From Vulcanimicrobiota bacterium (GTDB lineage: Bacteria > Vulcanimicrobiota > Vulcanimicrobiia > Vulcanimicrobiales > Vulcanimicrobiaceae), in the NCBI GenBank assembly GCA_027307235.1, contig DAHUXH010000008.1:62001-126000 (forward strand): a DNA stretch of 64,000 nt, in the 5' to 3' direction. The notes under the pieces were generated by a model. That model was given only the letters and a program-made list of their open reading frames with translations, did no database searches and had not been told where the DNA came from. Made by a program: the position numbers and the translations under genes. Below, in pieces: positions 10,885 through 64,000 of the stretch. Within the stretch, counting starts at the first letter, position 1, and each line of letters opens with the position of its first letter.

Positions 10885-12903
10885 CTACTTCAGGTAGCGA
10901 GCGATCCACTCGATCCAACGCCGATCGACGTCGAATGCGCGCACGGGATCGCCCGGAAAGTGCCCGCCGACCGGATACGCCCAAAATTCCACCGGCGTTC
11001 CGCGATCTTTGAGCGCATGATACATCTCATACGACTGCGGGATCGGCACGCGCTGATCGCCGACATCGCTCAAGATGAGCGTGGGGGTCGTGATATTCCA
11101 CGCGTACGTGATCGGCGATTGATCGATATAGGCTTGCAGCAGGTGCTTCGTCCACGGCGAGCCGCCCATGTTGTAGCGCCATCCGACGCCGTTGTCGCCA
11201 AGCGCATATTCGTCGACTAGATCGTTGACCGCCGCACCCGTGACCGCCGTCTTCCAGATGTGGTAGTGGCCGATCATCCACGACGTCATGTATCCGCCGT
11301 ACGACCAGCCCGAGACCGCAATGCGCGAGGTGTCGATCGGATAGGCTTTCTCGACCGCCGCGATACCGGCCATCACGTCACGGCCAGGCCCCGCGCCCGA
11401 ATCGGTGACGATCGCGTGCCAGTATTTTTCGCCCAAGTTGTCGCTGCCGCGATAGTTCGGGTTGAACACGATGTAGCCGCGCGCCGCCAGTAGTTGATTC
11501 AAACTCGAAAACGACGTGATCGACGCCGAGTTCGGGCCGCCGTGGATGACGAGGACCAGCGGGTAGCGTTTGTTCGAATCGTAGTTGGGCGGCAGCGTCA
11601 CCGTACCGTCTTCATCGAAGCCTTCGAGCGTCCACGCGATCGGTTTGACCGCGCCGAGGTCGAGTTTCGCGATCGAGTCGTTGTACGACGTCAGGCGTTT
11701 GGGAACGGCAGACGCGGAGGAAAGGTAGTAGAGTTCGGTCGGATGATTCGGCTCGCTCGCCGTGAACGCGATCGCGCCGGTCTTGCTGATCGACGCATCG
11801 AGCCAGAACGACTGCACGGGTTGCACGTCGCCGAGATCGAGCCGCTTGACCGCACCGCCGAGGGTCTTGATCCAGAGCGCCGCATCGGTGCCTTTGTGTC
11901 CGGAGATCAACAGCGACTGCCCGTCGGGCATCCACATCGCACGCTGCACGTTGGTGTCGATGTCGCTTGCGGTGACGTCGGTCCCATTCCCGCCGCTCGC
12001 CGGCGCGACGAAGATGTCGTTTTGAGCGGCACCGTCGCCTGCGAACGGATACCAATACAGAACATTCTTTCCGTCAGGCGAAAACTCGCCGAAACCTTCG
12101 AGCCCGCCGTGTGAAGTCAACGTGCGAATCGCGCCGCTCGCGACGTTGAGCACCGCGATGACTGCGTGGTCGGAATCGGCAACGTAGGCGTTGGGCATCT
12201 TGGTGAAGACGATCTCTTTGCCGTCGGGCGACCACGAGATCGGCGCGCCGGGCGAACTCGGCGGCTGTGCGCTCGGCAAACCCCACGCGCCGCTCGTCAA
12301 ACGCTTGGCGTCGCCGCCGTCAGCGGCGACCAGCCACAGATGATTGGGCGTCGGCGCGGCGCGATCGTCGAAGGCTTGATCGCCGACGACGAAGGCATCG
12401 AGGTGGTGCGCGATCTGCTTGGTGTTCGCCGGTTCATCGGGCGCGACAAATGCGATAGCCGCGCCGTCCGGACGCCACGCGAATTGTTGGACGCCCAGCG
12501 GCGCATGCGTGATCGGCGTCGGGTCGCCGCCGTGCATGTCCATCACGAAGAGCTGCTGCCGCGCATCGCTGCCCTCGCCCGCGAGCGCCAAGAACGCAAG
12601 CTTCTTGCCGTCCGGCGACCACGCCGGCGAGGCCAGCGCTTTGCGCGCGTAGGTGAGTGCGCGGTGTGTGCCGGTCGCGAGATCGAGGAGTTCGAGGGTG
12701 CGGTCGCTGCGATCTTCCTTCATGTTCACATGCGACACGATGTAGGCGATCGACGTGCCGTCAGGTGAAATCGTCGCGTCGCTGACGCCGGCGATGGCGG
12801 GCAAGTCGTCGTAGCCGATCGTGCGCGCCGAGGCGTTACCGGCGGCGGCGAGCGCGGCTACGAGCGCGAGTGATGGGATCAGTCGTTTCATCATCGTCGT
12901 CAT
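10885..12903 (-). CDS. secreted S9C-type acylaminoacyl/prolyl oligopeptidase
   Basis: A 672-residue secreted serine peptidase. ATG 12903 is chosen because it overlaps the upstream gene's stop as ATGA and starts the signal peptide MTTMMKRLIPSLALVAAL; the frame is open ten codons further. The propeller (about 25-400) has many SPDGTS/SPDGK blades (TolB/PD40 type). The hydrolase triad is S534 in SGWSYGGYMTSW, D616 in SDVGDQRVP and H648 in GGHFPGDP. It probably cleaves short peptides in the periplasm. It is a tandem paralogue of the next gene; both share the GWSYGGYM and HALKDxGT blocks. Confidence 0.92.
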   Translation of the reverse strand: MTTMMKRLIPSLALVAALAAAGNASARTIGYDDLPAIAGVSDATISPDGTSIAYIVSHVNMKEDRSDRTLELLDLATGTHRALTYARKALASPAWSPDGKKLAFLALAGEGSDARQQLFVMDMHGGDPTPITHAPLGVQQFAWRPDGAAIAFVAPDEPANTKQIAHHLDAFVVGDQAFDDRAAPTPNHLWLVAADGGDAKRLTSGAWGLPSAQPPSSPGAPISWSPDGKEIVFTKMPNAYVADSDHAVIAVLNVASGAIRTLTSHGGLEGFGEFSPDGKNVLYWYPFAGDGAAQNDIFVAPASGGNGTDVTASDIDTNVQRAMWMPDGQSLLISGHKGTDAALWIKTLGGAVKRLDLGDVQPVQSFWLDASISKTGAIAFTASEPNHPTELYYLSSASAVPKRLTSYNDSIAKLDLGAVKPIAWTLEGFDEDGTVTLPPNYDSNKRYPLVLVIHGGPNSASITSFSSLNQLLAARGYIVFNPNYRGSDNLGEKYWHAIVTDSGAGPGRDVMAGIAAVEKAYPIDTSRIAVSGWSYGGYMTSWMIGHYHIWKTAVTGAAVNDLVDEYALGDNGVGWRYNMGGSPWTKHLLQAYIDQSPITYAWNITTPTLILSDVGDQRVPIPQSYEMYHALKDRGTPVEFWAYPVGGHFPGDPVRAFDVDRRWIEWIARYLK

Positions 12904-14891
12904 CCTCGTACCTTCAGATAGCGGTCGAGCCAACCGAGCCAGCGCCGCGTGACGTCCTCGGAGCGAACCGGATCGGACGGAAAGTGGCCGGCAACCGGAT
13001 AGGCCACGAATTGCACGGCCGTCCCGTTGTCTTTGAGAGCGTGATAGAGCTTGAACGAGTTGGTGATCGGTACGTTGTTGTCGCCGATGTCACCCATGAT
13101 CAGCGTCGGCGTCGTGACCTGTGAAGCATATGCGATCGGCGACTGCGAACGCCACATCGCGGTGTACTTCGGATTCCACGGCACGCCGCCGAAGAACGGC
13201 ACGTCGGTGTACACGTAGAACGCGATATCGAAATCGTCGAACCAGTCGTCGAGCGACGCGCCGCTGACCGCCGCCTTCCACACGTGGTAGTTGCCGATCA
13301 GCCACGACGTCATGTATCCGCCGTACGACCAGCCCGACACGCCGATCCGCGACTCGTCGACGATGCCCATGCGTTCGACCGCCGCGAGCCCGGCCATCAC
13401 GTCTTTGCCGGGGCCGTCGCCGGCGTCGCGAGCGATGGCGTGCTGATACGAATCGCCAAGGTTGGTGCTGCCGCGATAGTTCGGCTCGAAGACGAGATAG
13501 CCGTGGGATGCGAAGATCTGCCGCTGCGTGCTCCACGCGATCGACGACGCTGATTGCGGTCCGCCGTGAATCAGCAGAATCAACGGCGTCTTGCCGCCTT
13601 TCCATCCCGGCGGGTATGTCAGCACGCCGTCTTCATGAAATCGACCTTTTGTCGCCGTCCAATCGACGCCGGCGCTGCGAGCGATCGGCACGTTCCGCAC
13701 AAACGCATTCTCAGCGGTGAGCGCCACCGGCCTCGATGCCGCCGAATTGAGGACATACACCTCGGCGGGATGCGAAGGCGTCGTCGCGACGAAGACGATC
13801 GTGCCGTTGCGCGCCGCATTGCCCAGCCGCGAGACCTGCACGTCGCCCGTGTCGATGCGCCGCGCACGACCGGCGACCGGAGCGTACCACAGGCCGATGT
13901 TCGTACCGTCGTGCGCGGTCATCCACACCGCGTCGCCCGCTGCATTCCACGCGTAGTCACCGACATTGCGATCGACGCCGGCGCGCACGTCGCGGCCGTC
14001 GCCGCCGCCGGGATGTGTGACGAAGAGTGCTATGCCGTTGGCGTAGTCGCCGTGCGTGTTGCGATTGTAGACGAGGGCATCGCCGTGCGGCGCGAACTGC
14101 GGACCATTCTGCAGGCCGCGCGATGTCGTCAACTGACGCATGCGGCCCGAAGCGACGTCGATCAATTCGATCGTCGACGTCAGCGAATCGCCGACGAACG
14201 GCGTCGGAAACCAGGTGATCGCAAGTGTTCTGCCGTCGGCCGACCATGACAGATCGCCGCCGCCGTCGGGCGAGACGTCGGCGATGCTCCACGCCCCCGA
14301 CGTCAAGCGGCGCGCATGCAAGCCGTCGGCACCGACGATCCACGCATGCACGGGCGGCGTCGCGGCACGGTGGAGATAGTCGTTGTCATGAACCTGGAAA
14401 GCGTCGCGGTGCGCGTCGACATCCTTCTGATCGGGAGCGTCGTCTGGCATCGCATAGGCGAAACGCGATCCGTCGGGGCTCCACGAGTAGTTGAAGACGC
14501 CGTTCTTCGCATGCGTCACCTGGCGCGCTTCGCCGCCGTCCATCGGCAGCACGAATATCTGCGACTGCGGATTCTTCTCGTCGGCGTCGTCGGCGAGAAA
14601 CGCAAGCGACGTGCCATCCGGCGACCAGCGCGGCATCGCGACGCCCTTGCGATCGTAGGTCAGCGCGCGCGAGCGACGGGTGCGCAGATCGACGAGCATG
14701 ATCTGCCGGAGCGTTCGGTCCTTTTCGTAGTCGGCCACCCCGCGAACGTAGACCGCGCGCGTGCCGTCCGGCGAAATTTGCGCATCGCCGATGCTCACCA
14801 CGCGGCGAGCGTCGGAGAAATCGAACGCGCGCGCCGGAGTTGCGGCACACACCGAAAAGGCGATCACCGCGAGTGTCAAGACGATCCGCAT
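12900..14891 (-). CDS. secreted S9C-type acylaminoacyl/prolyl oligopeptidase (paralogue)
   Basis: A 663-residue secreted peptidase with signal peptide MRIVLTLAVIAFSVCAATPARA, a PD40 beta-propeller (ISPDGTR, WSPDGTS, WSPDGSR, VSPDGGG blades) and a C-terminal alpha/beta hydrolase with S522 in GWSYGGYMT, D604 in GDIGDNNVP and H636 in AGHFPSDP. It is first in a coupled two-gene unit: its TGA overlaps the next ATG (ATGA at 12900-12903). The two copies probably arose by duplication and may differ in peptide preference: this one carries a FYVYTDVPFF insertion-like aromatic segment near the active site that the paralogue lacks. Confidence 0.92.
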   Translation of the reverse strand: MRIVLTLAVIAFSVCAATPARAFDFSDARRVVSIGDAQISPDGTRAVYVRGVADYEKDRTLRQIMLVDLRTRRSRALTYDRKGVAMPRWSPDGTSLAFLADDADEKNPQSQIFVLPMDGGEARQVTHAKNGVFNYSWSPDGSRFAYAMPDDAPDQKDVDAHRDAFQVHDNDYLHRAATPPVHAWIVGADGLHARRLTSGAWSIADVSPDGGGDLSWSADGRTLAITWFPTPFVGDSLTSTIELIDVASGRMRQLTTSRGLQNGPQFAPHGDALVYNRNTHGDYANGIALFVTHPGGGDGRDVRAGVDRNVGDYAWNAAGDAVWMTAHDGTNIGLWYAPVAGRARRIDTGDVQVSRLGNAARNGTIVFVATTPSHPAEVYVLNSAASRPVALTAENAFVRNVPIARSAGVDWTATKGRFHEDGVLTYPPGWKGGKTPLILLIHGGPQSASSIAWSTQRQIFASHGYLVFEPNYRGSTNLGDSYQHAIARDAGDGPGKDVMAGLAAVERMGIVDESRIGVSGWSYGGYMTSWLIGNYHVWKAAVSGASLDDWFDDFDIAFYVYTDVPFFGGVPWNPKYTAMWRSQSPIAYASQVTTPTLIMGDIGDNNVPITNSFKLYHALKDNGTAVQFVAYPVAGHFPSDPVRSEDVTRRWLGWLDRYLKVRG

Positions 14892-26667: not shown

Positions 26668-28257
26668 GTGACGAAAATGAAGTTTGAACAGATATCCAAG
26701 GCGTTCGCCTTCGTTGCCGCCGCTTCGCTTGCGGCATGCGGCGGTGGCGGCGGCGCGACGCCGCCTCCCGCTCCGGCGCCTCAAACGGGTGCGAACGTGC
26801 TCACCACGATCGTCGGCATCGGCGACAGCCTGACGGCCGGCTTCCAATCCGACGGCTTCCTCGGCGCACCGGTGGGATCGATTCCTAACCCGCTGGCCGC
26901 CGGAACACCGGCCGCAGCGCTCGGCGTCCCGCCAGGTCAAGAGAGCGGATTCTGGTCGCAGCTCTACATGGCGGCCAAGGGCGCGAACTACGGGACGATG
27001 GCAAATCAATCGACCTCGCCGCTGCCGCTCATCGCCGCACCAGGACTCGGCAATCAGATCGTTCCCGCCAATCCGGCGGTCGTGGGAACGCCGTTCGGCC
27101 AACTCCCCACGCGCAGCAACTGCGATACGTTCAACGCCGCCGCCTACGCGCTCAATCAGCTGACGACGGTTCGCGAGAATCCCAAAGGCACGGTGCTCGA
27201 CCTCGCCGTCCCCGGCATCACCTTGCACGAAGCCCTCACGCTCACGCAGCCGCCGGTGCCGACCTGTAACGCCCAAGCCTTGGCCGGCGCGCCGCTCGGT
27301 ATGCTGGCTCCGCTTCTGAGCGAGAGCGGAAACTTCTATCCAGTACTCGGCGGGTTCGGACCGAACGCGACGATGCTGAGTGCGGCTACCTCGCTGCATC
27401 CGACGCTGACCACGGTGTGGCTCGGCGCCAACGACCTGCTCCACTACGCGTTGAGCGGCGGGGCCTTCACCGGTTCGGACGGTTTGGGCAACAACGTCGG
27501 TCAAGTGCAGCAGGACATGGTCTCGATCATCAGCACGCTGCAGAAGGCCGGCTCGCAGGTCGTGGTCGCAAATCTGCCCGACATCTTGCAGACGCCGTTC
27601 TTCGCTCAAGTGGCGGGACCGCCGTCGCCGGCAGCCTGCTCAGTGCAGACGTTCTTGGTCTGTGAACTCTCCCAGTTCCCGGCCCCCATCGGAACCAACG
27701 CTGCCGCCATCGACGCGGCGATCGCCGCGCTTCCCAACGGTCCCGGCGCCAACGGCATCGTCACCGAAGCGGGCTTGCTGACCATCATCGGCGAGTTGAC
27801 GAAGGGCGTTCCGATCAACCAGCTCACCCTCGATCCGGCTGGTCCCGGCAGCGGTCTCGGGCAGAACTACCTTACGCAAACGTTTGCCGCGAGCGTGCAG
27901 CAGCTCAACGACACGCTCAACACAGGCATCGCCAACGCCGCTTCGCAAACAAAGGTCCCGCTCGTCGACGTTCACACGATCTTCGCGGGCCTGGCCAGCG
28001 GCAATTTCAGCAACCAGTTCTTCGCCCAAGCGGCCAGCATCAATCCGGGCAAGTGCTGCACGCTCGCGTTCGGCGGCGGTCTGGTCAGCTTCGACGGGCT
28101 TCACCCCTCGAACACCGGCTACGCGTTCATCGCCAGCGCCTTCGTCCAAACCATCAACACCGCGTTCGGCAACCCGATCGCCGGAACGGTCAACCCCGCC
28201 AGCGAGTACAACGGTGTGGGCGCGATTCCATTCCCCGACCCATACGCCCAGCATTAG
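26668..28257 (+). CDS. SGNH/GDSL hydrolase, lipoprotein
   Basis: A 529-residue lipid-anchored hydrolase. Signal with lipobox SLAAC (C24), then a Gly and Pro linker (GGGGGATPPPAPAPQ). SGNH blocks: nucleophile S54 in VGIGDSLTAG, block III N255 in WLGANDLL, and block V D476/H479 in SFDGLHPSN. The ~220 residues between are longer than in minimal SGNH enzymes and contain many Gly/Pro/Asn turns. Likely an outer-membrane or periplasmic esterase, substrate unknown. GTG 26668 or ATG 26677 could be the start. Its TAG stop lies inside the arm of palindromic element 1. Confidence 0.9.
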   Translation: MTKMKFEQISKAFAFVAAASLAACGGGGGATPPPAPAPQTGANVLTTIVGIGDSLTAGFQSDGFLGAPVGSIPNPLAAGTPAAALGVPPGQESGFWSQLYMAAKGANYGTMANQSTSPLPLIAAPGLGNQIVPANPAVVGTPFGQLPTRSNCDTFNAAAYALNQLTTVRENPKGTVLDLAVPGITLHEALTLTQPPVPTCNAQALAGAPLGMLAPLLSESGNFYPVLGGFGPNATMLSAATSLHPTLTTVWLGANDLLHYALSGGAFTGSDGLGNNVGQVQQDMVSIISTLQKAGSQVVVANLPDILQTPFFAQVAGPPSPAACSVQTFLVCELSQFPAPIGTNAAAIDAAIAALPNGPGANGIVTEAGLLTIIGELTKGVPINQLTLDPAGPGSGLGQNYLTQTFAASVQQLNDTLNTGIANAASQTKVPLVDVHTIFAGLASGNFSNQFFAQAASINPGKCCTLAFGGGLVSFDGLHPSNTGYAFIASAFVQTINTAFGNPIAGTVNPASEYNGVGAIPFPDPYAQH

Positions 28258-28359
28258 GAAATCCTGATTTCCGCCATGCCTTCGTTGCGGAGAGGCTCGT
28301 GTACCGTAGTACACTTCGCCTCTCCGCGCCTCGGCCTGACGAAAATCAGGACTTCCTAA
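28254..28359 (-). repeat. stop-adjacent palindromic element, copy 1
   Basis: A 106-bp palindrome. Its left end TTAGGAA contains the TAG stop of the SGNH gene. Read on the minus strand (the orientation in which the loop is C(TACG)G) it has: copy-specific outer arms of about 12 bp; a shared inner arm GATTTTCGTCAGGCC / GGCATGGCGGAAATC; an internal loop (GAGGC opposite AACGA); a perfect 10-bp stem GCGGAGAGGC / GCCTCTCCGC; a small bulge; and GTGTAC-TACG-GTACAC. In that strand three non-Watson-Crick arm positions are G.T pairs and one is G.A. No coding sense in either strand. The AACGA-bearing arm faces the gene. Confidence 0.95.
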
Positions 28360-28376
28360 GGGGGCTATCGAGATAA

Positions 28377-28408
28377 AAAAACGGCGGGCATTACACCCCG
28401 CCGTTTTT
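28377..28408. terminator. bidirectional intrinsic terminator between two palindromic elements
   Basis: A perfect 12-bp stem AAAAACGGCGGG (28377-28388) with CCCGCCGTTTTT (28397-28408), loop CATTACAC, with T-runs on both strands. It ends both the SGNH gene from the left and gdhA from the right. Palindromic copies 1 and 2 flank it in mirror orientation. Confidence 0.95.
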
Positions 28409-28432
28409 CTTTTCATTCCGTGATCGCTCACC

Positions 28433-28532
28433 GAGAAGTTCTGATTTTCGTCAGGCCGAGGCGCGGAGGGGCGACGTGTTACGGTACACGAGCCGCTCCG
28501 CAACGACGGCATGGCGGAAATCAGGACTTCTC
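28433..28532 (+). repeat. stop-adjacent palindromic element, copy 2
   Basis: A 100-bp copy ending on the first base of the gdhA stop triplet (28532-28534, minus strand). Outer arms GAGAAGTTCT / AGGACTTCTC are specific to this copy and include one G.T pair. The inner arm equals copy 1; the 10-bp stem has one G.G mismatch; the tip is shortened by two bases (GTGTTACGGTACAC). Orientation is the mirror of copy 1, so here too the AACGA-bearing arm faces its gene. Confidence 0.93.
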
Positions 28533-29791
28533 TACGCGTAGATGCCGCGGAGTTTGGATGTGCGCACCACGCGGTCGATGGCGAGTTGGTAGGCGGCGAC
28601 GCGCAGTGTGGTGTTGTGGGTTTTCGCGAGTTTTTGGAGCTGGTGGAGATTTTCGAGCAGGGTTTCTTCCAGGCGCGCGTTGACTTCCGATTCCTTCCAG
28701 AAGTAGCCCATGCGGTCTTGTGCCCACTCGAAGTATGACACGGTCACGCCGCCGGCGTTGGCCATGATGTCGGGAATCACGACGATGCCCTTCTCGTTGA
28801 AAATACGATCGGCTTCGGGGGTCGTCGGACCGTTCGCGCCTTCGACGATCAGCTTCGCCTTGACTTTTGAAGCGTTCTCGACGGTGAAAACCTTTTCGAG
28901 CGCGGCCGGCACGAGGACGTCGCAGTCGCTGGTCAACAGCTCGCTGTTACTGATCTTGTCGCCGCCCTTGAAGCCGTCGAGCGTCCGATTTGCGCCCACG
29001 TATTCGACGGCGTGCGCGATGTCGATGCCCTTGTCATTGTAGTAGGCGCCGGTCACGTCGGAGATGCCGACGACTTTGCAGCCGCGCTCCGCGAACAGTT
29101 TAGCCGCATACATTCCGACGTTGCCGAAGCCTTGCACGACAATCGAGACCTTTTTGGGATCGAGTCCCATCGCAGCCATTTGATCGAGCGCGCAGATCGT
29201 CACGCCGCGCCCGGTCGCTTCAGTGCGGCCACGCGAACCGCCGATCTCGAGCGGCTTACCGGTGACGACGCCCGGCACGTTCTGACGAACGTGCATCGAG
29301 TACGTGTCCATGAACCATGCCATGATCTGCGGAGTCGTGTTGACGTCGGGGGCCGGAACGTCTTTATCCGGTCCGACGACTTCGACGAGTTCGGCCGCGT
29401 AACGGCGCGTGATGCGTTCGAGTTCGTTGGTTGAAAGCTGGCTCGGGTCGCAGGTCACGCCGCCTTTGCCGCCACCGAACGGCAAGTCGACCACCGCGCA
29501 CTTCCAGGTCATCCAGAAAGCGAGCGCCGTGACCTCGTCGAGCGTCACACCGGGATGGTAGCGGATACCGCCTTTGGCCGGGCCGCGTGCGAAGTTGTAC
29601 TGCACGCGATAGCCCGTGTAGACTTCGAAGTCACCGGTGTCGCGTTGGAACGGGATCGAGAAGATGATCTGGCGCGACGGATGCGTCAGGATGCGGCGCA
29701 TGGATGAATCGAGTTCCAGCAAGTCGGCAGCCTGGTTGAAATAGGAGATGCCGTCACCGAAAACCGAGACGTCGCGCGTAGTGGTCGACAT
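28532..29791 (-). CDS. gdhA: glutamate dehydrogenase
   Basis: A 419-residue enzyme of the small hexameric class that interconverts glutamate and 2-oxoglutarate plus ammonium. Substrate lysines lie in PAKGGIRYHP (K73), MTWKCAV (K97) and the catalytic PFGGGKGG (K109); the catalytic Asp is D149 in VPAPDVNT. The nucleotide fold has VQGFGNVG near 220. Residue choice after the second strand (VVGISDVTG) ends in Asp, favouring NAD over NADP. Length and sequence style match the 415-430-residue Glu/Leu/Phe dehydrogenase group. Monocistronic: an upstream hairpin separates it from ychF, and a shared terminator lies beyond element 2. Confidence 0.95.
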   Translation of the reverse strand: MSTTTRDVSVFGDGISYFNQAADLLELDSSMRRILTHPSRQIIFSIPFQRDTGDFEVYTGYRVQYNFARGPAKGGIRYHPGVTLDEVTALAFWMTWKCAVVDLPFGGGKGGVTCDPSQLSTNELERITRRYAAELVEVVGPDKDVPAPDVNTTPQIMAWFMDTYSMHVRQNVPGVVTGKPLEIGGSRGRTEATGRGVTICALDQMAAMGLDPKKVSIVVQGFGNVGMYAAKLFAERGCKVVGISDVTGAYYNDKGIDIAHAVEYVGANRTLDGFKGGDKISNSELLTSDCDVLVPAALEKVFTVENASKVKAKLIVEGANGPTTPEADRIFNEKGIVVIPDIMANAGGVTVSYFEWAQDRMGYFWKESEVNARLEETLLENLHQLQKLAKTHNTTLRVAAYQLAIDRVVRTSKLRGIYA

Positions 29792-34737: not shown

Positions 34738-35427
34738 ATGACTTTCGGCGGCTCACTCCTCGGCGATGTCATCGAGTGGTTCCTCACGCGCGTGGGGGAT
34801 CGACGCCAGTACAAGCGCAGAGCCGGCGCCTTCCACATGTGGTGGCTCCCGGAAAACCAGGCGCCGGTGCAGGGCATCGGCATGGAACTCTCGCCCAACG
34901 GGATCGTCTTCATCATCAAAGCCGGCATTCAGGCGCCCGAGTTCAACATCCGCATGCGCATACGCGAGCAGATGCTGCCAGCCCGCGTCAAGCGCGTCCG
35001 GTACGACGTCATGGACTATAAAGGCGAGAAGTTCAACCGCTACGTGTGCGAGCTTCAGGGCATCGCCGCCGACCATTGGGATGCGATCGTCCGTTACGTC
35101 AACGACACACCCGAGCCGATCGACCGTCGCAAACAGCAGAACCAAGAGATGTCCAACCGCGTCGACGACGCTTATCGTCTGCTGCCGATGGCGATCCAGC
35201 AGAAGCTCATCGACCTGCTCGTCGGCCAGCGCAAGCTCGAAGCGCCCGCACCCGGCCAGACGCCCTTGATCAAGCTTTTTTACGGAGGGCTCGTGAACGT
35301 TCCGGGCAAGGGCAAAGCGCACCGCGTCAACGTCCACAGCCGCATCAAGGTCAACGACGACATGATGGCCTACGACTCACGCTTTTTGGTGACAGAACCC
35401 GGCGGCGAAATCATCCAACAATCGTGA
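34738..35427 (+). CDS. PilZ-like domain protein
   Basis: A 229-residue soluble protein. The N-terminal ~100 residues look PilZ-like: RRQYKRR provides an RxxxR pair at about 22-28, followed by a strand and GMELSPNGIVFIIK, which fits the (D/N/E)xSxxG half of the c-di-GMP site. The remainder has MLPARVKRVRYDVMDYKGEKFNRYVCELQGI, a barrel-like strand series, then a helical linker (RRKQQNQEMSNRVDDAYRLL) and a C-terminal segment not recognised. Function as a c-di-GMP receptor is inferred and should be treated as moderate. Its TGA stop is inside the arm of the half copy of the palindromic element. Confidence 0.6.
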   Translation: MTFGGSLLGDVIEWFLTRVGDRRQYKRRAGAFHMWWLPENQAPVQGIGMELSPNGIVFIIKAGIQAPEFNIRMRIREQMLPARVKRVRYDVMDYKGEKFNRYVCELQGIAADHWDAIVRYVNDTPEPIDRRKQQNQEMSNRVDDAYRLLPMAIQQKLIDLLVGQRKLEAPAPGQTPLIKLFYGGLVNVPGKGKAHRVNVHSRIKVNDDMMAYDSRFLVTEPGGEIIQQS

Positions 35428-35475
35428 CGGGGGCTGATTTCCGCCAGGCCGTCGTTGCGAAGAGGCTCGTGTACC
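35424..35475 (-). repeat. half copy of stop-adjacent palindromic element (52-bp tandem duplication)
   Basis: Bases 35424-35475 repeat, with one G/T difference, the left half of copy 3 at 35476-35527, joined head to tail with a period of 52 bp. It contains only the gene-facing arm (GTGACGGGGG, GATTTCCGCCAGGCC, TTCGCAACG complement, stem half) and stops at the tip of the hairpin. The PilZ-like gene stop TGA is at 35425-35427, inside it. Confidence 0.93.
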
Positions 35476-35581
35476 GTGACGGGGGCTGATTTCCGCCAGG
35501 CCTTCGTTGCGAAGAGGCTCGTGTACCGTAGTACACTTCGCCTCTTCGCGCCTCGGCCTGACGAAAATCAGACCCCGTCAC
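35476..35581 (-). repeat. stop-adjacent palindromic element, copy 3
   Basis: A complete 106-bp copy. Outer arms GTGACGGGG / CCCCGTCAC are copy-specific. Minus-strand reading gives the C(TACG)G tip, a perfect 10-bp stem GCGAAGAGGC / GCCTCTTCGC, and an inner arm with two G.T pairs. The stem differs from copies 1 and 6 by a compensating A-T for G-C change. The gene-facing arm is on the left, toward the PilZ-like gene. Confidence 0.94.
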
Positions 35582-35592
35582 TAGATCAAGAT

Positions 35593-35629
35593 GGCGCGTT
35601 GCTTACTGCTGACGCGCTGTTTTGCTTTT
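35593..35629 (+). terminator. intrinsic terminator between palindromic copies 3 and 4
   Basis: A stem GGCGCGT (35593-35599) with ACGCGCT (35612-35618), one G.T pair, 12-base loop, followed by GTTTTGCTTTT. It would end transcription of the PilZ-like gene. As at 28.3 kb, the terminator lies between two mirror-image palindromic elements. Confidence 0.75.
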
Positions 35630-35648
35630 GGAAGGGGAGAGGCTTGTC

Positions 35649-35748
35649 GGAAGGTTTGATTTTCGTCGGGCCTAGGCGCGGTGAGGCGACGTGTACTGTG
35701 GTACACGAGCCTCTCCGCAACGACGGCCTGGCGAAAATCAAACCTTCC
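35649..35748 (+). repeat. stop-adjacent palindromic element, copy 4
   Basis: A 100-bp copy with perfect outer arms GGAAGGTTT / AAACCTTCC, ending on the first base of the TAG stop triplet (35748-35750, minus strand) of the R3H ATPase gene. Inner arm GATTTTCGTCGGGCC / GGCCTGGCGAAAATC has two G.T pairs; the 10-bp stem has one T.T mismatch; the loop is TGTG instead of TACG. The AACGA-bearing arm faces the gene. Confidence 0.94.
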
Positions 35749-37286
35749 TACTCGGACTTGAAGATTCTTACGCGGCGGTTCGGCTCCAAGCCGGTGCTTC
35801 TTGATTGCACTCGGTATTTTTCGGCGAGTTGGTGTTGTTGACGGCGGACGTACGACGTCTGGGGTGAGAGTTCGATGGCCTTGTTGGTCAACATGACCTG
35901 ATAGATCGCTTCCTCGGTCTCGCGCAACGCAATCTCTTCGTTATCGATGGCGCCGAGGTGAAACACGTCGCGCAACGCAGTTTGAATTTGCGTCGTGGTG
36001 TTGGTCTTGATCGAGTAGATCGGCACGTTGTCGGATGCGATCTGCTTGAGTTTCGGCTGCTGCTTGCGTTCGAGTGTCTTGAGCGTCAGCACGACGTCGG
36101 CTTCGTCCCACGCGCGAGCGATCGTCGCGTGGATGCGCAGGTTGTGGACGGCGCGCTCGATCTTGTTGCGCGAAACGCCGTACGGAAAGATCGAGATCGG
36201 TTTCTCGCCTTCTTCGACCTCATGATGGTCCTCGCCGTACGCCTCGGCGATCTGCGGCATCGATTCCGGAACGGCTTCCTGAACGATCGCCACTTGGCCG
36301 GTCGCGGTGCGCTGGCGAATCTCCGGCTGCGGTTGATAGCCGCGCAGGAGAGCATCGACCACCTCGCCGACGTTCTTGTGAATGGCGAGACGATCGCGGT
36401 CGATGATCTCGACGACCACGTCGAACGTCGGAGGAGCTTTGCGCTCGAGCACGGTCTTGCGCGTGCCGCGGCGGCGCGCTTCCTCGTCGGAAAGTGTGAC
36501 CGCGCTGATGCCGCCGACCAGATCGGAGAGCGTCGGATTCATGAGGAGATTTTCGAGCGTCTGACCGTGCGCGGTCCCGATCAACGTCACGCCGCGTTCG
36601 GCGATCGTGCGCGCAGCCACAGCTTCGGCTTCCGTGCCGATCTCGTCGATCACGATGACCTGCGGCATGTGGTTCTCGACGGCTTCGATCATGACGGCGT
36701 GCTGCAGCGCCGGATCGGCGACTTGCATGCGGCGGGCCGTCCCGATGCCCGGATGCGGAATGTCGCTGTCACCGGCGATTTCGTTCGACGAGTCGACGAT
36801 GACGACGCGCTTGCGCTCCTCGCTCAGAATGCGCGCGCACTCGCGCAGCATCGTCGTCTTACCGACGCCCGGGCGGCCGAGCAGGCAGATTGACTGTCCG
36901 CTGCGCAGCACGTCGAGCACGATGTCGATGGTTCCGTACACGGCGCGGCCCACACGACAGGTCAATCCGACGATCTTGCCGGTGCGATTGCGGATCGCGC
37001 TGATGCGATGCAGTGTTTGTTCGATACCCGCGCGATTGTCCGCGCCGAACGGTGAGATGCGCGAACTGACGTGGGCGATATCTTCGTTGGTGACCGACGT
37101 GTCGCTCAGATAGACAAAATCGTGCTCGAAACGAGCCTCGGGCGGACGCCCGAGATCGAGCACGACCTCAATGATGGATTCGAGATTGGGGAGTCTTACG
37201 AGCGCTTGCCGGATCGGCAGGGGGAAGATATCGAGGAGTTGACTGAGCTCCCAGCCGGGGGCGATGGATTCCGCCTTGACCGCCAA
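35748..37286 (-). CDS. SpoIIIAA/Ycf45-like AAA ATPase with C-terminal R3H domain
   Basis: A 512-residue ATPase. Residues about 130-300 form a SpoIIIAA-like secretion-ATPase fold: Walker A LLGRPGVGKTTML, a VVIVDSSNEIAGDSDIPHPGIG segment, Walker B VIVIDEIG, and a TAHGQTLENLL switch. Residues about 350-440 include a central region with PYGVSRNKIERAVHNL and DEADVVLTLK. The C-terminus holds an R3H single-strand-nucleic-acid domain with RRQQH (RxxxH) and ends GLEPNRRVRIFKSE. This layout matches cyanobacterial/plastid Ycf45 and related proteins, whose role is not established. A nucleic-acid-linked motor is inferred. The N-terminal ~100 residues (SpoIIIAA-like) precede. Confidence 0.88.
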   Translation of the reverse strand: MAVKAESIAPGWELSQLLDIFPLPIRQALVRLPNLESIIEVVLDLGRPPEARFEHDFVYLSDTSVTNEDIAHVSSRISPFGADNRAGIEQTLHRISAIRNRTGKIVGLTCRVGRAVYGTIDIVLDVLRSGQSICLLGRPGVGKTTMLRECARILSEERKRVVIVDSSNEIAGDSDIPHPGIGTARRMQVADPALQHAVMIEAVENHMPQVIVIDEIGTEAEAVAARTIAERGVTLIGTAHGQTLENLLMNPTLSDLVGGISAVTLSDEEARRRGTRKTVLERKAPPTFDVVVEIIDRDRLAIHKNVGEVVDALLRGYQPQPEIRQRTATGQVAIVQEAVPESMPQIAEAYGEDHHEVEEGEKPISIFPYGVSRNKIERAVHNLRIHATIARAWDEADVVLTLKTLERKQQPKLKQIASDNVPIYSIKTNTTTQIQTALRDVFHLGAIDNEEIALRETEEAIYQVMLTNKAIELSPQTSYVRRQQHQLAEKYRVQSRSTGLEPNRRVRIFKSE

Positions 37287-44220: not shown

Positions 44221-44328
44221 GCTAGGAAGCGTTGATTTCCGTCAGGCCGAGGCGCGAAGAGGCGAAGTGTACTACGGTACACGAGCCGCTTCGCAACGAA
44301 GGCCTGGCGGAAATCAACGCTTCCTAGC
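44221..44328 (+). repeat. stop-adjacent palindromic element, copy 5
   Basis: A 108-bp copy with the longest arms: the left 28 bases from GCTAGGAAGCG pair with the right 28 with a single G.T pair. The TAG stop of the HNH gene (44324-44326, minus strand) lies in the right arm. Tip GTGTAC-TACG-GTACAC is intact; the 10-bp stem has one A.G mismatch. This is the only copy between tandem genes: it separates the HNH gene's end from the bioA promoter region. Confidence 0.95.
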
Positions 44329-60526: not shown

Positions 60527-61006
60527 TCAAGAGGTCTTCTGTTCGATCGCTCGTGCCACGATCGGCACGTCGCCGAATGCAGCCGGATTCGCGCTCACGT
60601 ATTCGATTGCCAAGTCGATCAGGCGCTTCTCGTTGACGTAGCGCAAGGCTCTGCGCGCTGCCCCGATGTCGAACCAGCGGGCCTCGTCGACCTCGTGATC
60701 GTGGTTGGCGACGTCGCCCGAGAGGTAGCGCATAAGGAAGAACGTGACGCTCTTCTTGTGCTTGGCCTGATTGACGTAGAACCAATACGAAATCTCGTTG
60801 AGGCGCATCAGGATCTCTCCCCAGCACCCGGTCTCCTCGCGCACTTCGCGAATGGCCGCTTGCTCTTTGGATTCGCGCGGTTCCACGTGCCCTTTGGGCA
60901 AGGTCCAAACGCGCGGCGAACCGCGCCCGATCAAAAGCGCATCAAAGCCGGACTCGTGCGGTCGTAACACGAGCCCACCGGCCGAAACCTCGTACTTGAT
61001 ACGCAT
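60527..61006 (-). CDS. Nudix hydrolase
   Basis: A 159-residue Nudix protein. ATG 61006 is chosen: it lies seven bases after AGGGG, and the domain starts immediately (MRIKYEVSAGGLVLRP). The Nudix box GHVEPRESKEQAAIREVREETG fits Gx5Ex7REUxEExGU. LLIGRGSPRVWTLPKGHVE and the later WFYVNQAKHKKSVTFFLMRYL suggest the Ap4A/8-oxo-dGTP-type group, substrate uncertain. The frame stays open 73 codons further, through a 12-bp tandem repeat. scpA starts 23 bases later. Confidence 0.92.
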   Translation of the reverse strand: MRIKYEVSAGGLVLRPHESGFDALLIGRGSPRVWTLPKGHVEPRESKEQAAIREVREETGCWGEILMRLNEISYWFYVNQAKHKKSVTFFLMRYLSGDVANHDHEVDEARWFDIGAARRALRYVNEKRLIDLAIEYVSANPAAFGDVPIVARAIEQKTS

Positions 61007-61181
61007 CACCAGACCCCTTAGAGGTGCGGCAAGGGCGCCCGAACGGTGCGCCCTGATTACCCCCATTATAGCGCCCGCCACCAAGAAGAGCCTGCCAGAA
61101 GGATCATCCTCTTTTTGCGCGAGGGCCTCCGCTCGGGCGTCCCGGAAAGACGACCTGATTGAGGATCGCGTGCCAGTCCGG

Positions 61182-61229
61182 TCGGCCAAGAGATCGGCCA
61201 AGACATCGGCCAAAGTATCGGCCACCTAC
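61182..61229 (+). repeat. four tandem 12-bp repeats
   Basis: Units beginning TCGGCCAAGAGA at 61182, 61194, 61206 and 61218, the last one diverged after TCGGCCA. Being a multiple of three, the repeat is in frame on the minus strand, reading LAD(V/T/L)LAD. Confidence 0.9.
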
Positions 61230-61269: not shown

Positions 61270-62496
61270 GTGAGCCAGAAGAGACCGGCCAATCTCAAAG
61301 AAGATGAGTCGCCACAGCGGATCGAGCCGACGATGCTCGACAATCCCAACACAGCAATCCGTGACCTACTCGTGGAGGTTGCCCGCTCTTCCAATGAGCT
61401 AGGAACCCGCCTTCATCCCATGACGGCGGCGAGCCTCGCTGCGCTCGTGCGCATTATGAACGCGTACTACAGCAACCTCATCGAAGGGCATAACACGCTG
61501 CCGCGCGATATCGCGTGCGCGCTCGTCGGTAAACTCTCCGACGTCCCTGAACGCCGAATACTTCAACTCGAAGCCGCGTCACACGTGCGAGTACAGGCGC
61601 AGATCGATCAGATGGCGGCCGAAGGGTCGCTTCCGGAACCCGCGTCGAGCAAATTCATCACCTGGATTCATCGCTCATTCTACGAGAATGCGCCGGAAGA
61701 ACTGCTCCACGTTCGCGAAAACGACCCGGATTATCGTATGCTGCCTGGCGCCTTTCGGCACGAGCGCAAAGAGGATGTTGTCGTTGGCCGGCACCAGCCG
61801 CCAACGAGCGTCATGATCGGCCGATTCATGCGGTACTTCGAGGAGCGATATCGCTTCGAGCAGATGGGGCCCTCAGATCGGATACTCTCCATTGCCGCTG
61901 CGCATCATCGATTCAACTACATCCACCCCTTCCCCGATGGCAACGGTCGCGTCAGTCGGCTGATGAGCCACGCCATGGCGCATGCAGCCGGTATCGGGTC
62001 TCATGGATTGTGGTCCATCTCGCGAGGGTTAGCGCGCGGGCTTTCCTCGCGCACAGAGTACAAGACAAAACTCGATGAAGCCGACACGCCACGCCGCGGC
62101 GAGCTCGATGGTCGCGGAAATCTCTCCCGTGACGCGCTTGCGCGGTTCACGGAGTGGTTTCTAACGGTTGAGCTTGATCAGATCACGTTCATGGCAAGCC
62201 TTTTTGACCTTCAGAAACTTTCCGAGCGCTTACGTCATTTCGTTGATCGTCACGAACAGCTCAAGCGGGAGTCGTATCTGTTGCTTGACGCCGCACTTAC
62301 GCGCGGCGAATTCGCTCGCGGAATGGCCCCATCGATCACCGGCCTTCCTGAACGCACCTCTCGTCGCCTCTTGGAAGACCTGCTCAAAGAGGAGCTGCTG
62401 GCATCCGCAACGCCAAAGGGTCCGGTGTCGCTGCGCTTCCCGCAACCCCACGCCGAGTGGCTCTTTCCGCGCCTGTTCGATCCTACAGTGACTTGA
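61270..62496 (+). CDS. class II Fic-domain protein (probable AMPylase)
   Basis: A 408-residue protein. The N-terminal segment AYYSNLIEGHNT contains the inhibitory helix motif S68-x3-E72-G73 typical of class II Fic proteins. The catalytic loop is HPFPDGNGRVSR at 219-230, complete with H219 and N225/G226/R227. The C-terminal ~100 residues contain LPERTSRRLLEDLLKEELL, a winged-helix-like end. It transfers AMP (or another NMP) to a hydroxyl of a target and is self-inhibited by E72. GC content and codon use are lower than in the neighbours, suggesting a mobile accessory gene. No antitoxin-like gene adjoins. Confidence 0.92.
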   Translation: MSQKRPANLKEDESPQRIEPTMLDNPNTAIRDLLVEVARSSNELGTRLHPMTAASLAALVRIMNAYYSNLIEGHNTLPRDIACALVGKLSDVPERRILQLEAASHVRVQAQIDQMAAEGSLPEPASSKFITWIHRSFYENAPEELLHVRENDPDYRMLPGAFRHERKEDVVVGRHQPPTSVMIGRFMRYFEERYRFEQMGPSDRILSIAAAHHRFNYIHPFPDGNGRVSRLMSHAMAHAAGIGSHGLWSISRGLARGLSSRTEYKTKLDEADTPRRGELDGRGNLSRDALARFTEWFLTVELDQITFMASLFDLQKLSERLRHFVDRHEQLKRESYLLLDAALTRGEFARGMAPSITGLPERTSRRLLEDLLKEELLASATPKGPVSLRFPQPHAEWLFPRLFDPTVT

Positions 62497-62525: not shown

Positions 62526-62630
62526 GGGGAAGCCCTGATGTACGTCAGGCCGAGGCGCGGAGAGGCGAAGTGTACTACGGGTACACGAGCCTCTCCGCAA
62601 CGACGGCCTGGCTTACATCAAGGCTTCCCC
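62526..62630 (+). repeat. stop-adjacent palindromic element, copy 6
   Basis: A 105-bp copy with outer arms GGGGAAGCC / GGCTTCCCC. Inner arms have changed on both sides: GATGTA pairs with TACATC where other copies have GATTTC or GATTTT with GAAATC or GAAAATC. The tip carries an extra G (TACGG). The right arm overlaps the last codons of gcvPB (GGG AAG CCT, Gly-Lys-Pro) and its TGA stop (62618-62620). Confidence 0.94.
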
Positions 62631-64000
62631 GGGTGCCAGCGGAGGTCGGGGTGGCGTGCCGCGCGCGTCTCGTCGACGCGACCGACGACAGTGTTCTTCG
62701 GCGCGTCGAGAATCGATTGCGGATCGGTCTTCGCGGTCGCGACGATCTCGCGCAGCGCCGCGATGAAGACGTCGAGCGTCTCTTTCGATTCCGTCTCGGT
62801 CGGTTCGATCATCAGACATTCAGGCACGATCAGCGGGAAGTACATCGTCGGCGCCATGAAGCCACGATCGAGCAGCGCTTTGGCGATGTCGAGTGCGCGC
62901 ACGCCGGTCTCTTTTTTGAGTTCCTGCGCGGAAGCCACGAACTCGTGGCGACAGATCTCGTCGTACGGCGTCGTCAGCACGTCGCGCACGTTCACGCGAA
63001 TGTAGTTCGCGTTGAGCACGGCAAGCGCAGAGACTTTCTTGAGGCCCTCGGCTCCGTTGGCGTAGATGTACGCGAGCGCGCGCACCGCGTGCGCGAAGTT
63101 CGACCAGAACGAGCGCATCGGACCGATCGATTTCGGGCGGTCGAAGTCGAGGGTGAACGTGAGCCGGTCGCTCGGAGCGGTGCTTGCGTCGCCGTTGGAG
63201 CGTTGCTTGGCGACGACCACCGGTGTCGGCAGGTAGTCGATCAGGTGCGCCGCGACGCCGACCGGACCGTGACCCGCGCCGCCGCCGCCGTGCGGGATCG
63301 TGAACGTCTTGTGCGTGTTGAGATGCATCAGGTCGAAACCCATGTCGCCGGGACGCGCGTTGCCCATCAGCGCGTTGGCGTTGGCTCCGTCGTAATACAT
63401 CAATCCGCCCGCAGCGTGAACGGCCGCCGTGATCTCGTGGACGTGATCTTCAAAGAGACCGAGCGTGTTTGGATTGGTCATCATGCACACGGCCGTATCC
63501 GGGCCGAGCACCTTCTTGATCTCATCGACGCTCACGCGTCCGCGCGCGTCGCTCGGAATCGAGATGACCTTGAATCCGCACATCGCCGCCGACGCGGGAT
63601 TGGTCCCATGCGCGGTGTCCGGAACGATCACTTTGTCGCGGTGGGTCTCGCCGCGATCTTTGAAGTATTTCTTGGCGATGAGCAGCGCCGCGAGTTCGGC
63701 GTGCGCGCCTGCCGACGGATTCAGGCTGAACGCCGCCATGCCGAACAACGATGCAAGCGATCGTTCCAGTTCATACATGACTTGCAGCGCGCCCTGCGAG
63801 AGTTCATCCGGCGCGTACGGATGCAGATCGCGAAAACCCGGAAGGTTCGCCATCGCGTCGTTGATGCGCGGATTGTATTTCATCGTGCAGGAGCCGAGGG
63901 GATAGAAGCCCAGATCAATGCCGAACGTGCGCTGCGACAGGCGTGTGAAGTGACGCACCACATCGAGTTCGCTGTTGTCGGGCAGCGGCAGGTCATCGCG
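62618..64000 (-). CDS. gcvPB: glycine dehydrogenase (decarboxylating) subunit 2 (partial at right edge)
   Basis: The C-terminal 460 residues of GcvPB, open to the last base of the window, so the N-terminus is outside. GcvPB with GcvPA forms the P-protein of the glycine-cleavage system. Marks: GIDLGFYPLGSCTMKYNPRIND, FSLNPSAGAHAELAALLIAKKYF, NPNTLGLFE, YYDGANANALMG, the PLP lysine in HLNTHKTFTIPHGGGGAGHGPVGV, and MYFPLIVPECLMIEPTETE. It ends LRWHPGKP, whereas relatives usually stop shortly after LRW; the last three residues lie in the palindromic element arm. Confidence 0.96.
   Translation of the reverse strand, partial: RDDLPLPDNSELDVVRHFTRLSQRTFGIDLGFYPLGSCTMKYNPRINDAMANLPGFRDLHPYAPDELSQGALQVMYELERSLASLFGMAAFSLNPSAGAHAELAALLIAKKYFKDRGETHRDKVIVPDTAHGTNPASAAMCGFKVISIPSDARGRVSVDEIKKVLGPDTAVCMMTNPNTLGLFEDHVHEITAAVHAAGGLMYYDGANANALMGNARPGDMGFDLMHLNTHKTFTIPHGGGGAGHGPVGVAAHLIDYLPTPVVVAKQRSNGDASTAPSDRLTFTLDFDRPKSIGPMRSFWSNFAHAVRALAYIYANGAEGLKKVSALAVLNANYIRVNVRDVLTTPYDEICRHEFVASAQELKKETGVRALDIAKALLDRGFMAPTMYFPLIVPECLMIEPTETESKETLDVFIAALREIVATAKTDPQSILDAPKNTVVGRVDETRAARHPDLRWHPGKP

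Follow-up and report, generated by a model that had tools for sequence, protein, structure and literature searches.

Can a dispersed repeat supply the last residues of a protein together with its stop codon, and, where it does so, does the protein end record an invasion of the gene by the repeat? This question is raised by one gene junction in the window (the whole 64,000-nucleotide stretch of DNA that was analyzed). Here the gene for glycine dehydrogenase subunit GcvPB (gcvPB; minus strand, positions 62618-64000 and extending past the window) ends within an imperfect palindrome, element 6. The original prediction took this arrangement as direct evidence that the element had invaded the gene end. 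We examined the junction, the family of repeats to which element 6 belongs, and its counterparts in related genomes.

Element 6 and the end of gcvPB

Element 6 is an imperfect palindrome of approximately 105 nt, located on the plus strand at 62526-62630 (arms, 62526-62552 and 62604-62630); the piece originally described ran to 62640, beyond the true end at 62630. Its 26-bp outer stem (62526-62551 paired with 62605-62630) encloses an internal loop (GAGGC/AACGAC), a 10-bp stem, a GAA/GA loop and a GTGTAC/GTACAC apical stem. The left outer arm (62526-62544) reads GGGGAAGCCCTGATGTACG and has the variant GATGTA, and the right outer arm (62613-62630) reads TTACATCAAGGCTTCCCC, with TACATC; the minus-strand reading of the latter starts GGGGAAGCCTTGATGTAA. 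Single-strand folding of the element is far above that of shuffled sequence (z = -10.2). The element is located between a plus-strand Fic-domain gene and the minus-strand gcvPB.

The identity of gcvPB is based on a match to the NCBIfam model NF003346 (675 bits, cut-off 441), with the start of the gene located beyond the window. Its reading frame runs into the right arm as CAC CCG GGG AAG CCT TGA, so that the open reading frame ends in LRWHPGKP. The gene and element overlap at 62618-62630 (minus strand), which comprises the third base of Pro457, the codons GGG AAG CCT, and the TGA, i.e., a stop offset of +13. Thus, the arm indeed encodes exactly the C-terminal Gly-Lys-Pro and the stop codon, as had been proposed.

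It had also been proposed that members of the GcvPB family usually end just after LRW. This holds for the NCBIfam model, whose match stops at Trp455 of LRW (profile position 487 of 487). It does not hold for the 29 relatives (none of the same genus) that lack the element at this place, in which LRW is followed by 1-21 unconserved residues with a median of 5, the length of the tail found here. None of the 29 proteins ends in HPGKP, the ending that the original prediction did not expect in such relatives, and one of them (G008) terminates as LRWHP. These observations bear on the possibility that HPGKP is the native end of GcvPB, in which case the arm would be host sequence and only the other arm would have been copied from it. 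The length of the tail and the LRWHP end are in favor of this possibility, as is a copy described below at a TonB-receptor-like gene, but GGGGAAGCCTTGATG in gcvPB matches the family-wide arm consensus nnGGAAGnnnTGATTT seen at unrelated genes, and we consider a native origin of HPGKP very unlikely. When the gcvPB flanks were joined without the element, the resulting protein ended in LRWHPCVMV or LRWHPASWFETMDSFKSL, neither of which is recognizable as a native end.

The neighborhood of gcvPB also differs from that in relatives. A NUDIX gene (60527-61225, minus strand) follows gcvPB in 16 of the 29 relatives, within 200 nt in 11 of them. In the window, these two genes are separated by 1.4 kb that contains element 6 and the Fic-domain gene (PF02661; 61270-62496, plus strand), which converges on gcvPB and whose stop codon lies at a distance of 29 nt from the left end of element 6. 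No Fic gene was found at the gcvPB junction in the 29 relatives compared, and relative to these genomes the Fic-domain gene at 61270-62496 is an insertion between gcvPB and the NUDIX gene. The native gcvPB end may have been lost in this event. It is even conceivable that insertion of the Fic segment remade the gcvPB end, that the element came with it or after it, and that GKP reflects the rearrangement; this is unlikely, since the same relation of element to stop codon is seen at dozens of loci and several other genes have an offset of +13.

The tail has the median length of those in relatives, an HP end exists in one of them, and this junction has also received a Fic gene. Taken by itself, the protein tail is therefore no proof of invasion, and the claim of direct evidence was too strong. 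The suggestion that HPGKP resulted from an element entering at or over the old stop codon fared better as regards position, because the location at stop codons proved to be general. It is this family-wide rule, and not the gcvPB tail, that favors invasion.

A family of palindromic repeats in the genome

The 2.41-Mb genome (20 contigs) was searched for additional copies of the element. Candidatus Eremiobacterota metagenome-assembled genomes are among the named neighbors of its GcvPB, so that the genome probably belongs to this phylum. A BLAST search at the DNA level gave 48 matches, and a covariance model built from 43 copies detected 69 distinct near-full copies, nearly all of them 104 nt in length. 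The family structure consists of a 26-bp outer stem, an internal loop GAGGC/AACGAA, a 10-bp stem, a GAA/GA loop and an apical stem GTGTAC/GTACAC closed by TACG. The copies are dispersed, and the conserved part of the repeat is apical, with variable outer arms. Changes on both sides were observed in 23 of the 42 structure pairs, compared to a shuffle mean of 10.1 (+/- 2), and sliding the partner by one column reduced paired cells from 96% to 42-43%. Pairing ends sharply at the element end: the last pair is formed in 35 of 43 copies, and a pair two bases further out in 9 of 43. The last two bases of the element are nearly random in sequence in spite of their pairing.

Other copies in the window are located at 28255-28358 (minus strand; stop codon of the incoming gene at offset +3), 28432-28533 (plus strand; +2), 35477-35580 (minus strand), 35647-35750 (plus strand; +3) and 44223-44326 (plus strand; +3). 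The copy at 35477-35580 has a replaced outer arm (TGACGGGGTC) and is preceded by a 52-nt half-duplication at approximately 35425-35476. Such tandem duplications of about 52 nt, extending from the hairpin apex (CGGTACAC) to the right end of the element, were found at four loci (window 35425-35580, C11:51135-51287, C10:170155-170309 and C10:307929). Inverted pairs of copies, approximately 70-80 nt apart, occur between convergent genes at 28255-28533 and 35477-35750, and the first of these pairs has a terminator-like hairpin between its copies. At C10:72589-72864 (L021, L147), three copies are arranged in tandem and are partly truncated. The window also contains direct repeats of about 127-129 nt with 2024-nt spacing (11210-13503; families D4 and D5).

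Anchoring at stop codons

To locate the stop codons at the elements, the best-scoring frame entering each element end was taken, using a home-made codon model trained on the window, with which single calls may err. A gene could be called at the right end of 52 copies, and in 51 of these its stop codon lies within -3 to +13 nt of that end (47 directly and four after subtraction, by hand, of the 52-nt half-duplication), with one exception. At the left end, a stop codon was found in the same range in 9 of 43 (Fisher p = 2.5e-16 for right versus left). Calls of no gene are not all true, as C12:180463 has a cytochrome-c-like open reading frame ending at the boundary. TAG is enriched among the stop codons at elements, with 23 of 39 near the elements compared to 27 of 93 elsewhere.

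Apart from a single case at +10, the offsets cluster either at -3 to +4 or at +13, which is the pattern expected from use of the TGA within the arm. The +13 class uses the arm-borne TGA, in the motif GGAAGnnnTGA, and 42 of the 69 right arms have a stop trinucleotide at +13. Most arms carry a TGA ten bases in, and it acts as the stop codon when a gene enters in that frame. It serves at least seven genes, including gcvPB. The caller assigned six genes to this class: C9:175633, C12:65489, C15:8631, C10:315297, C3:9812 and gcvPB, with the tails GKL, EKL, GSL, MRV, SVD and GKP, respectively. An FhlB-like gene (C10:185687; GKL) and a gene for a small membrane protein (C12:210465; GKS) were added by inspection.

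We compared these element-encoded tails with the ends of homologous proteins. A TonB-receptor-like protein of the +13 class and most of its homologs stop at the same alignment column (LTEKL versus LTLQYRL and VTYKL), and the FhlB-like protein ends in DAGKL versus DAGQR or DAGSSP. In neither of these two genes is the element-encoded tail longer than those found naturally in orthologs. This resemblance to the ends of homologs implies that element-encoded tails are tolerated in protein ends that are variable anyway, and GKP of GcvPB is probably a tolerated by-product of this kind.

Occurrence in related genomes

A DNA search of 99 genomes of the same family, with genera counted for well-assembled genomes, detected the element in 23 genomes and 12 of 38 genera; at the threshold used, the other 76 genomes had no matches. 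The covariance model matched 10 of 14 chosen genomes, among them a genome from a second family (f2) of the order, with two weaker matches. In 40 copies from 17 genomes, the outer 20 pairs were Watson-Crick in 83% of cases, compared to 23-34% when slid, and the core loops were the same. Element length, core loops and polarity recur in several genera and in family f2. For 36 of the 50 listed copies from relatives, a gene could be called at the right end, and its stop codon was at -2 to +4 in 23 of these cases. One locus (L246 in G016) showed no fold or match and was left out; it is probably cut at a contig end, with shifted coordinates. Another locus (L061, JANYGA010000035.1), titled Rhodospirillales, has a gcvPB end and downstream region identical to those of the Eremiobacterota-family genome G007 (L054) and is probably a mislabeled metagenome-assembled genome.

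Variation of the arms

Over the 69 copies, columns 1-16 contained 221 cells that were non-modal yet Watson-Crick paired, versus 123 mismatches. Swaps in the outer arms were of the transversion type in 111 cases and of the transition type in 110; G.T states (37) did not significantly outnumber A.C states (26; p = 0.21), and mismatches remained flat with arm divergence (rho 0.02 in the 69 copies). Several copies (C9:206806, C10:76291, C13:50096 and C10:163795) have arms that are largely replaced and still complementary. The nearly free variation of the outer arms, combined with their continued complementarity, suggests copying from one arm to the other. Template switching is one proposed means by which hairpins are created and maintained (PMC8794818).

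The arms of element 6 would fit this pattern. The original prediction stated that three inner-arm base pairs had changed on both sides; a compensated change is indeed present, but it involves two pairs. From GATTTC to GATGTA, a T-A pair became G-C, and C-G (or the usual T.G wobble) became A-T, whereas the pair next to these two is a new C:T mismatch. The commonest left arm among the copies is GATTTT, not GATTTC, and gives a T.G wobble at one position. As TGATGTA is also found in copies from two other genera (L234 of G009 and L264 of G016), GATGTA need not be peculiar to element 6. GATGTA/TACATC would be an ordinary case of arm-from-arm copying.

Selection on the hairpin could also yield compensated arms, and a functional RNA or DNA hairpin might be selected at the 3' end of each gene, where its effect might be, for example, on ribosomes at termination, on mRNA ends or on converging transcription. 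This is the meaning one would give to the fixed position and polarity at stop codons and to the maintenance of core loops, length and polarity across genera and in a second family; moreover, E. coli REPs within 15 nt of the stop codon are reported to stall ribosomes (PMC12306157). Nevertheless, we regard such a function as rather unlikely. G.U-type states are not enriched in the outer arms, transversion swaps equal transitions, and the 76 of 99 family genomes without a match at the threshold used also argue against it. In addition, the sense (mRNA) strand folds worse: RNA antisense to the gene with the stop codon is the more stable in 63 of the 69 copies. The inner stem has a corresponding strand bias (G.T 92 versus A.C 5), which comes mainly from two inherited columns, 17 and 20. 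Absence from Rfam points the same way; there was no gathering match in the window, and nothing convincing was found at a relaxed threshold in 10 loci. As to transcription termination, inspection by eye revealed no T-run after the copies, so that the element is not an intrinsic terminator, and an origin of the outer arms from pre-existing host terminators was ruled out for most copies, since the arms share GGAAGnnnTGATTT.

Probable origin and spread of the element

Candidate mobilizers were searched for in several ways. The Y1 transposase (PF01797) had no matches in this genome or in nine relatives, and a reverse transcriptase was not found in this genome. Inspection by eye of the sequences bordering the listed copies revealed no direct repeat indicative of a target-site duplication. 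The region between two close copies on C12 was considered as a transposase carrier; it contains cytochrome-c-like, undecaprenyl-diphosphatase-like and unassigned open reading frames, none of them transposase-like by eye.

Copies of approximately 104 nt sit at gene 3' ends in one orientation, with the right end on the stop codon. We believe that element 6 probably represents a dispersed, non-autonomous palindromic element of Eremiobacterota that is REP/MITE-like in its behavior, its mobility being suggested by the dispersal of copies. Its spread would have involved insertion at stop codons or immediately upstream of them, the inserting form may be a hairpin made by the strand that is antisense to the host gene, and insertions that disturb the protein would be removed by selection. 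The outer arms would arise mainly by copying across the hairpin, through a template switch or fold-back synthesis, and not by slow two-step compensatory mutation. A broader proposal, that hairpins of about 104 nt target stop codons in one direction across the order, independently of any REP transposase or reverse transcriptase, and have arms regenerated by copying, is more tentative, and we place it somewhat below an even chance.

Palindromic repeats near gene ends are common; one-sided anchoring at stop codons and arms that stay complementary as they lose their sequence are unusual. If the outer arms are copied, their sequence would drift freely, with complementarity and length fixed. As this small genome has some 70 near-identical copies and relatives have divergent ones, two questions become testable, i.e., how elements find gene ends, and whether arms evolve by arm-to-arm copying or by compensatory mutation. 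Furthermore, the element-supplied C-termini (GKP, GKL, EKL and GSL) illustrate that a repeat can rewrite protein ends.

Comparison with known palindromic elements

A literature search found no description of such elements in Eremiobacterota. Among known systems, GTAG REPs, with their REP-associated tyrosine transposases (RAYTs), are also dispersed palindromes with imperfect stems beside gene 3' ends, and their termini often provide TAG stop codons (PMC3733652). However, GTAG REPs are 20-40 bp in length with an unpaired GTAG tag, whereas the element described here is 104 nt and has no conserved GTAG at either end. It further differs in having variable outer arms, a strictly polar relation to the stop codon and no detected Y1 transposase. 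CGTC-type REPs have no known dedicated transposase (PMC3733652), and the left arm of our element usually has CGTC before the core stem. Yet CGTC REPs have an 8-9 bp stem, a 4-5 nt loop and a CCA tail, whereas CGTC in the element is internal, paired within the 26-bp stem and not conserved across genera, which sets it apart from this class.

YPAL/RU-2 and ERIC-like repeats are similar as miniature palindromic elements of 100-170 bp, and YPAL targets sites at or beside dyad symmetry and is co-translated with upstream genes (PMC2229807). As judged by description, YPAL differs in making target duplications of 3-26 bp, none of which were seen for our element. Rickettsia palindromic elements insert into coding sequences and are known for this intragenic position, whereas the copies described here sit at stop codons. 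In other respects they are similar, being palindromes of 105-146 bp that can be translated in frame with their host genes (PMC2229807). MITEs of DDE transposons have fixed terminal inverted repeats, in contrast to the nearly free though complementary terminal bases of the element, and integron attC sites have conserved outer R boxes in a tandem cassette array, in contrast to its conserved apex, variable outer arms and dispersed copies. Overall, the element belongs with the dispersed palindromic elements and shares the location of REPs but not the defining features of the GTAG or CGTC types, and its anchoring at stop codons is unusually strict and polar.
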